From a virus, in the IMG/VR virus record IMGVR_UViG_3300033553_000194, positions 1-53,273 of that record: a stretch of DNA of 53,273 nucleotides. The stretch is one strand, 5' to 3'. A model generated the notes under the pieces. The model searched no databases. It was not told the origin of the DNA and saw only the letters and a list, made by a program, of their open reading frames with translations. Shown here piece after piece: positions 4,079-5,569 of this stretch. A program made the position numbers and the translations under genes. Each line of letters begins with the position of its first letter. The stretch's first letter is position 1.

Positions 4079-4284
4079 ACGCAAACCAGTCCGCCCAGCA
4101 GTTACGCCTCGCACTGGCCGCGCAGCCAGCAACCGCAAAAGCACTGCAAGCGATCACCGGCATGCCCGAGCGCACGGTGCGCAGCTATCTGCAGATGTTG
4201 AGCCAGTCCCGCCAGATTCGCCCAGCCGGGCGCGCCAAGACCGGCAAGCGAGGAATGAGTTCGATTGTTTGGGGGGCGGTATGA
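4075..4284 (+). CDS. Small helix-turn-helix protein
   Basis: This 69-residue basic protein has an HTH at residues 20-45 (TAKALQAITGMPERTVRSYL). It starts in an ATGA overlap with the P-like gene. Its TGA (4282-4284) overlaps the ATG at 4281 of the overprinted ORF, not the methyltransferase start at 4286. Confidence 0.6.
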   Translation: MNANQSAQQLRLALAAQPATAKALQAITGMPERTVRSYLQMLSQSRQIRPAGRAKTGKRGMSSIVWGAV

Positions 4285-5264
4285 CATGGCTTTACATACC
4301 ATCGAGCTTTGCAGCGGAGTCGGAATGCTGGGCGAAGGACTGCGAGCCGGGCTCAGACACATGGGCATCGAGACTCGCACCGTTTGCCACGTTGAACGGG
4401 AAGCTTACGCAGCCGCGGTACTGGCGGAAAGAATCGAAGAAGGCAGCTTGGATTCGGCTCCTGTCTGGAGCGACCTTTGCACCTTTGACGCTAGAGCATG
4501 GCGTGGAAAAGTGGATTGCGTCGTTGCCGGATTCCCGTGCCAAGACTTGTCCATCGCCGGAAAGCGCGCAGGACTCGACGGAAAGCGTTCCGGCCTCTTC
4601 TTCGAAGTCTGCCGAATCGCAACCGATAGCGGTGCGTATCTCATGTTTCTGGAGAACGTCGGAGGCATCGCTTCTGCCACCGCCTCCGCTATGGACGAAA
4701 CCGAAGGCGAGATTGAAGAGCGCGCCGCTTCCCGCGTCGTGGGAGAACTGGCCGACCTCGGCTGGGATGCGGAATGGTTGCATGTATCTGCGTCCGAAGT
4801 GGGTGCCAGCCATGGCCGAGAACGGTGGTTCTGCGTTGCTTGGAGGATGGGCTACGCCACGAGCGAACGATTCGGAAAAGCGTGGGGATGTGACTCATCG
4901 CCCATTAATGCCGGATCTAGTCGGACAGGCTCAGAACTGGCCGACGCCAATGGCTTCGGATTGCGGATTAAAAGTAACGGAAAACAGCAATCAGGGCGGT
5001 CTGATAAAAGCGAGTTCGGACTTTTCGCGCCAGGGCCCGCCTCTCCCGCGTGGAAACGGATCATCAGCGCATCGCCTTGGTTATCGCCCGCGCTTGAACC
5101 CGATTTTCGGGAGCTGGTTAATGGGCTGGCCTTTGACATGGACGATTGCAGAGCCCAGCGCCTCAAGTGCGTTGGAAACGGAGTTGTGGCGATCCAAGCT
5201 TCAGCATCATTTGTCGTACTTGCTCGACGAGCCGGAATTTTTTACTGATCTGGAGGCAGCATGA
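4281..5264 (+). CDS. Overprinted ORF spanning the methyltransferase gene
   Basis: This 327-codon frame runs across the whole methyltransferase gene in a different phase. It starts with an ATGA overlap to the upstream gene and stops with an ATGA overlap to the downstream gene at 5261, the joining style of the whole operon; the methyltransferase frame fits neither junction. The product is rich in Ser, Trp, Pro, Lys and Arg. The blocks MTWLYIPSS, WIASLPDS, SCFWRTSE, WPTP and LNPIFGSWLMGWPLTWT match, from memory, a recurrent family of unannotated phage proteins that ends in a WLMG(W/F)P..WT motif. No function is known to me. The match was not searched. Confidence 0.55.
   Translation: MTWLYIPSSFAAESECWAKDCEPGSDTWASRLAPFATLNGKLTQPRYWRKESKKAAWIRLLSGATFAPLTLEHGVEKWIASLPDSRAKTCPSPESAQDSTESVPASSSKSAESQPIAVRISCFWRTSEASLLPPPPLWTKPKARLKSAPLPASWENWPTSAGMRNGCMYLRPKWVPAMAENGGSALLGGWATPRANDSEKRGDVTHRPLMPDLVGQAQNWPTPMASDCGLKVTENSNQGGLIKASSDFSRQGPPLPRGNGSSAHRLGYRPRLNPIFGSWLMGWPLTWTIAEPSASSALETELWRSKLQHHLSYLLDEPEFFTDLEAA
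4286..5248 (+). CDS. DNA cytosine-5 methyltransferase
   Basis: This 320-residue protein transfers a methyl group from S-adenosylmethionine to cytosine C5 in phage or host DNA, probably shielding the phage from restriction. Visible motifs: I (IELCSGVG, residues 6-13), IV with the catalytic Cys (GFPCQDLS, Cys85), VI (ENVGG, 123-127), VIII (GASHGRERWF, 173-182) and X (GNGV near 297). The target-recognition part between VIII and IX is short, about 100 residues. The usual catalytic residues are present, so it should be active. A second full-length frame overlaps it. Target sequence not predictable. Confidence 0.88.
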   Translation: MALHTIELCSGVGMLGEGLRAGLRHMGIETRTVCHVEREAYAAAVLAERIEEGSLDSAPVWSDLCTFDARAWRGKVDCVVAGFPCQDLSIAGKRAGLDGKRSGLFFEVCRIATDSGAYLMFLENVGGIASATASAMDETEGEIEERAASRVVGELADLGWDAEWLHVSASEVGASHGRERWFCVAWRMGYATSERFGKAWGCDSSPINAGSSRTGSELADANGFGLRIKSNGKQQSGRSDKSEFGLFAPGPASPAWKRIISASPWLSPALEPDFRELVNGLAFDMDDCRAQRLKCVGNGVVAIQASASFVVLARRAGIFY

Positions 5265-5569
5265 ACACATTTCTACAAATCATGGCCGGGCCTATCCCGA
5301 TGAGTGAAGAGGCTCGACGCGTATCCAGGATTATCAAACACGACATGCCCGGCACTGACAAGCCGCAACACAGCATGCCGAGCAAGTCGACTCAAGACAA
5401 GGTTTTGGCTTGGGCAAAAAAATGTAAGGGTGAATTTATGGCAAAGGAGGCGTCGGAGGGGTCGGGATTTTCAAAGCGCCCGACCTACGAAGCGCTGTAT
5501 CGGATGAAGGATTTTGGGATCGTCGATAGCCGACGAATCGGGAAAATAATCCTGTGGAGGGTGATTTGA
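5261..5569 (+). CDS. Probable small DNA-binding protein
   Basis: This 102-residue basic protein's second half (residues 55-100) looks like a winged helix ending in a basic hairpin (VDSRRIGKIILWRV). Its ATG overlaps the stop of the overprinted ORF (ATGA at 5261-5264). No family recognised. Confidence 0.5.
   Translation: MNTFLQIMAGPIPMSEEARRVSRIIKHDMPGTDKPQHSMPSKSTQDKVLAWAKKCKGEFMAKEASEGSGFSKRPTYEALYRMKDFGIVDSRRIGKIILWRVI

Follow-up and report, generated by a model that had tools for sequence, protein, structure and literature searches.

A phage C5-cytosine DNA methyltransferase probably encoded as two subunits in two overlapping reading frames

Long overlapping genes on the same strand are rare and are often suspected of being annotation noise. 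In the C5-methyltransferase M.EcoHK31I, the β gene lies inside the α gene in another reading frame. M.EcoHK31I consists of two polypeptides (Lee, Kam and Shaw 1995, as cited in PMC3404938): the larger chain contains motifs I–VIII, motif X and the predicted recognition domain, which leaves motif IX alone to the smaller polypeptide (PMC3404938). In M.AquI, also a two-subunit C5-methyltransferase, the catalytic motifs are on one chain and the distal recognition region is on the small subunit together with motifs IX and X (PMC3404938). Such split enzymes are a known exception to the presence of motif IX and the recognition domain in a single chain (PMC3404938).

The stretch of DNA analysed here (the window) is a complete virus record of 53,273 bases, IMGVR_UViG_3300033553_000194. 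A primosomal protein is encoded upstream of the methyltransferase gene, and homologues of NinB, NinG, the large terminase and the portal are encoded downstream, which places the locus in the replication/recombination region of a tailed phage. The same DNA is open in two frames, A (320 aa) and B (327 aa), B being one base out of phase with A (Table 1). An earlier reading of the sequence only had described the second frame as open for 327 codons over the methyltransferase DNA, and had attributed ATGA overlaps with the adjacent genes to this frame alone. Both ORFs were found exactly as described, with ATGA at 4281–4284 and at 5261–5264, and frame A makes neither junction.

Table 1 Features of the two-frame locus (positions in the window)
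Feature	Position	Strand	Basis
Frame A, putative α subunit: C5-cytosine methyltransferase large domain with motifs I–VIII and X	4286..5248	+	PF00145, AF2
Frame B, putative β subunit: overprinted +1 frame with xPTP (probable target-recognition) modules and motif IX	4281..5264	+	Open ORF, selection tests, motif IX profile
Region N: catalytic half of frame A (motifs I–VIII), with the N-half of frame B out of phase	4286..4843	+	A dominant; B weaker yet selected
Frame B module 1 (WATPRANDSEKRGDVTHRPLMPDLVGQAQN)	4848..4937	+	Aligned B proteins; sharing and shuffling of modules between phages
Frame B module 2 (WPTPMASDCG...)	4938..5084	+	Aligned B proteins; hhalign to in-frame actinophage modules, prob 98.9
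Motif IX, frame B (PRLNPIFGSWLMGWPLTWTI)	5088..5147	+	Actinophage-trained profile
Motif X, frame A (LKCVGNGVVAIQAS...)	5162..5233	+	Actinophage-trained profile; AF2 pLDDT
Dual start: B ATG (ATGA over the upstream stop) 5 nt before the A ATG	4281..4290	+	Sequence; start positions in relatives
ATGA junction shared by the stop of B and the start of the following gene (5261–5569)	5261..5264	+	Sequence

Frame A showed the AdoMet-binding and catalytic motifs of a C5-cytosine DNA methyltransferase (FPCQ, ENV and motif VIII) as well as its fold. A Pfam search matched residues 4–192 to PF00145 (E=1.2e-27), and the frame also matched the PHROG profile phrog_29583. The earlier statement that this frame has every catalytic motif was right for motifs I–VIII and X, FPCQ and ENV included, but motif IX is absent from A, which does not combine motif IX and a recognition domain in one chain as monomeric enzymes do. 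An AF2 model built from 41 sequences was confident at residues 1–186 and about 287–316, with a pLDDT of about 94 at residues 301–310 (motif X), while residues 192–244 and 269–285 were disordered, with pLDDT <50. The model aligned to M.HhaI (VIA Z 20.2, 206 residues). Together, the confidence profile and this alignment indicate that A has the large domain without a folded recognition domain; in the model, the predicted disorder is located where the DNA-recognition domain should be.

Frame B matched PHROG profiles including phrog_1008 and phrog_27243, with two matches labelled DNA methyltransferase, and had no match in Pfam or NCBIfam; distant B proteins searched against Pfam gave nothing useful. 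The blocks WIASLPDS, WPTP and LNPxFxxWLMGWPxxWT, which the sequence-only reading had linked to unannotated phage proteins, do recur in the aligned B proteins of relatives. The sole match of frame B in a PDB profile search, to the MS2 coat protein (E=0.004), looked like chance and was discarded. When modelled alone with AF2, frame B was predicted poorly (mean pLDDT 58.8) and no folded small domain was obtained. A chain needing its partner in order to fold could be expected to behave in this way; this was not counted as evidence. In most lineages, conservation of the N-half of B (M-x-W-L-Y-x-P...WIASLxxSRA...FWRTSxASLL) goes far beyond frame A, and this half matches no recognised domain. The C-half of B contains xPTP modules of about 30–45 aa, with 1–7 per protein in most loci, occurring in varying orders and common to several phages (six of our loci, for example). 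Such shuffling suggests changing specificities, possibly with several per enzyme.

The order of these elements in actinophages provided the key to reading frame B. In many relatives of Mycobacterium phage Babsiella gp54, a single frame runs from the catalytic domain through xPTP (W/L-P-T-P) modules and the LMGWP motif to motif X, and the distance from the LMGWP motif to motif X is 87 nt in most of the single-frame enzymes. This order is that of the canonical recognition region, motif IX and motif X. In other actinophages (e.g. Mycobacterium phage Firecracker gp6/gp5) the catalytic frame is cut short by an early stop, and a second frame holds the modules together with motifs IX and X. The window has its modules and motif IX in frame B, and motifs I–VIII and X in frame A. 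In pairwise hhalign comparisons, the E-values of which are not database-scale, the modules and motif IX of the B C-halves aligned with the in-frame C-half of the actinophage enzymes (prob 98.9), the C-halves of A aligned with it at motif X (prob 97.0), and the third frame gave no match (0.1). Short profiles for motifs IX and X, trained only on single-frame actinophage enzymes, were then scored on the 148 loci where both frames are intact. The motif IX profile scored best in frame B at 148/148 loci; the motif X profile scored best in frame A at 144, had no match at the remaining 4 and was never best in B. For the window itself, motif IX reached 21.4 bits in frame B against -2.8 in frame A, with no match in the third frame, and motif X gave 9.6 bits in frame A with no match in the other two. 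Based on this homology, we propose that the C-half of B probably represents the part of the same methyltransferase that holds target recognition and motif IX, moved to a new frame, and that B would not be a protein of separate function. Babsiella gp54 is itself a mosaic of the two arrangements (L029:1932-3779): its early modules are in the +1 frame, annotated as gp55, and the catalytic frame holds the later ones along with motifs IX and X.

Compared with M.EcoHK31I as described in PMC3404938, the locus is alike in having a large chain with motifs I–VIII and X and in placing motif IX on a second polypeptide. The putative second polypeptide is likewise encoded in another frame over the first gene. 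It differs in that the xPTP modules, assigned by homology to the in-frame actinophage modules, are on B and not on the large chain, and in that B begins upstream of A and covers it completely, whereas the second polypeptide of M.EcoHK31I is the shorter one. The locus resembles M.AquI in that the chain with the catalytic motifs is separate from the one with the distal recognition region and motif IX, but motif X stays on A instead of accompanying motif IX; the split actinophage loci L024 (Firecracker), L197 and L199 are closer to M.AquI than the window is. The single-chain actinophage enzymes, Babsiella gp54 and its relatives (four loci), have the same catalytic domain, xPTP modules and motifs IX and X as the window, but hold the modules and both motifs in the catalytic frame, some with early modules in frame B. 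In Firecracker, where gp6 and gp5 are both annotated as ‘DNA methylase’, the second frame, which bears the modules and motif IX, likewise overlaps the catalytic gene; unlike in the window, the overlap is short, gp5 also has motif X and the catalytic frame ends early.

Two viral scans, one scan of bacterial genomes and phage records yielded about 175 loci. The arrangement was found in well over a hundred other phages and bacterial genomes (beta- and alphaproteobacterial, verrucomicrobial and others). Both frames carry both halves at 113 of the about 175 loci, and a further 38, mostly from Rhodobacterales, in which B has a start of its own (e.g. MAWCHVPG), have a complete A and the C-half of B; at about 16 loci the halves are joined in other combinations. 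The B ATG precedes the A start by 5 nt in 62 loci and by 2 nt in 42, and the B start shows the conserved motif M-x-W-[LCH]. Many Rhodobacterales genomes (L129-L177) contain closely related copies of the pair with strong conservation of frame B. Relatives with an intact A and stops throughout B, which would have spoken against an overprinted pair, were not seen among those sampled; as the loci were mostly chosen by similarity to B, the frequency of A without B cannot be read from them. In a few distant relatives, Mycobacterium phage Nitzel among them, the stops are confined to the N-half of B.

Selection on each frame was assessed by shuffling the synonymous codons of A within the gene, which keeps its protein and codon composition exactly. 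Under these permutations frame B of the window acquired a mean of 5.3 stops and none of the 200 permutations left it stop-free, while the third frame, with 15 stops observed vs 12.7 expected, was about as expected. Similarity of the B frame to window B exceeded the permutation null in 26 loci (z 2.8 to 22, the window compared with itself included). Since the effect in close relatives is partly due to shared ancestry, 62 distant loci were scored against profiles for which window kin were the sole training set, using 40 permutations each and permuting B codons for the tests of A. All permutations were beaten by the catalytic half of A at 62/62 loci, by the C-half of B at 62/62, by the C-half of A at 60/62 and by the N-half of B at 48/62. 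Median scores against the null were 126 vs 24 bits (A N-half), 70 vs 19 (A C-half), 92 vs 7 (B C-half) and 57 vs 23 (B N-half). These reciprocal permutations show that each frame is conserved beyond what the other imposes.

Regional tests showed that the dominant frame changes near motif VIII, from A upstream to B downstream. Between Rhodobacterales pairs, changes nonsynonymous in A and synonymous in B numbered 2573 vs 882 of the reverse type in region C, and 614 vs 2510 in region N. In region N of the window kin, A-synonymous changes that create stops in B are avoided: their relative rate is 0.04-0.18, and the control frame gives 0.41. Pairwise NN/NS ratios were dropped as proof of constraint on the N-half of B: the third-frame control revealed a strong codon-position asymmetry, and the ratios were not relied on because codon positions 1 and 2 differ in constraint. 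With selection found on both frames, the two probably constitute an overprinted same-strand gene pair. The sequence-only reading had proposed such a pair, both members being kept, and had suggested searching with both translations and measuring synonymous constraint per frame; the permutation tests, the avoidance of B stops and the conservation of the B start 5 or 2 nt upstream of that of A support the pair.

The explanation that we consider likely is a C5-cytosine DNA methyltransferase of two subunits, both encoded by a single segment of DNA in two overlapping frames, with an assembly like that of M.EcoHK31I. The α subunit (A) would bind AdoMet and perform catalysis via motifs I–VIII and would also contribute motif X, having an out-of-phase disordered linker in place of the recognition domain, and the C-half of the β subunit (B) would provide the xPTP target-recognition modules and motif IX. 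Ribosomes are proposed to initiate at either of the two start codons 5 nt apart, so that both chains could be made from one mRNA, and the two chains would then assemble into one active enzyme, as in M.EcoHK31I. An ancestral enzyme with a single chain, of which forms are still present in actinophages, may have given rise to the arrangement through frame changes. Several observations count against this two-subunit reading. The AF2 prediction for B on its own yielded no folded small domain. The N-half of B is conserved and has no known domain, and it is not obviously needed by a β subunit. Moreover, the about 16 relatives with halves fused otherwise would be odd for an obligate pair.

Among the alternatives, B might be a genuine overprinted protein with an independent function, such as anti-restriction or regulation, and not a methyltransferase subunit. 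The conservation of its N-half beyond A in 48 of the 62 distant loci, its own conserved start and its lack of a Pfam domain are in line with this; we nevertheless regard it as unlikely, given that the C-half of B shares homology with the region of single-frame methyltransferases that holds the recognition modules and motif IX, and that exactly this region is the one missing from A. We give still less credence to ribosomal frameshifting, by which the catalytic half of A would be joined to the recognition region of B and translation would return to A for motif X, producing one chain. The single-chain order does exist in actinophages and some relatives have the catalytic half and the C-half of B in one ORF, but two shifts in opposite senses would be needed, and neither the conservation of the B N-half and B start nor the open, conserved A frame across the recognition region would be explained. 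Lastly, long spurious ORFs do occur in high-GC genomes and pairwise NN/NS ratios alone are ambiguous, but that B is a by-product of conserved A residues and GC-rich codon use, which leave a long open +1 frame, is very improbable and was rejected on the permutation tests (window and 62 distant loci), as B is lost even when A and its codon usage are preserved exactly, the third frame shows no such effect on stops and A-synonymous changes creating B stops are avoided.

The overlap described here is essentially complete, covering all of frame A, and recurrent, and its functional reading is backed by single-frame relatives. Under the two-subunit interpretation, many of the phage proteins called ‘hypothetical’ in which xPTP and LMGWP motifs occur are likely to be methyltransferase β subunits, and annotating one frame per locus would discard half an enzyme. 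Enzymes in one frame, split enzymes and fully overlapped ones form a natural series in which the passage of a protein domain from one reading frame to another can be studied. The open-access literature searched did not describe such an arrangement in phages, which is weak evidence of novelty.

In relatives, the joining of the halves was associated with G tracts. A tract of at least 7 G after the catalytic half was present at 13/16 of the differently joined loci vs 10/148 of the in-phase loci (Fisher p about 9e-11); the window has no such tract in this region. Within one sequence context, 8 G keep the halves in phase, 7 or 10 G join the catalytic half to the C-half of B, and 6 or 9 G join the N-half of B to the C-half of A. 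This pattern looks like slipped-strand phase variation, and homopolymer assembly error is a possible source of the differences in tract length. Tentatively, these loci may belong to a widespread phage and prophage family of two-subunit methyltransferases whose coding sequence lies nearly entirely in two overlapping frames, and in some members of which slippage at a G6–G10 tract where the halves meet would act as a three-state phase switch. The three states would be A and B both intact, the catalytic half with the recognition half of B, and the N-half of B with motif X, the catalytic half being truncated. Poly-G tracts of 7-10 were seen at the half junction of fourteen loci, and at these the tract length sets which halves are fused. 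A separate pattern scan of G tracts found n=8 in most matches, with n=9 and 10 also present.
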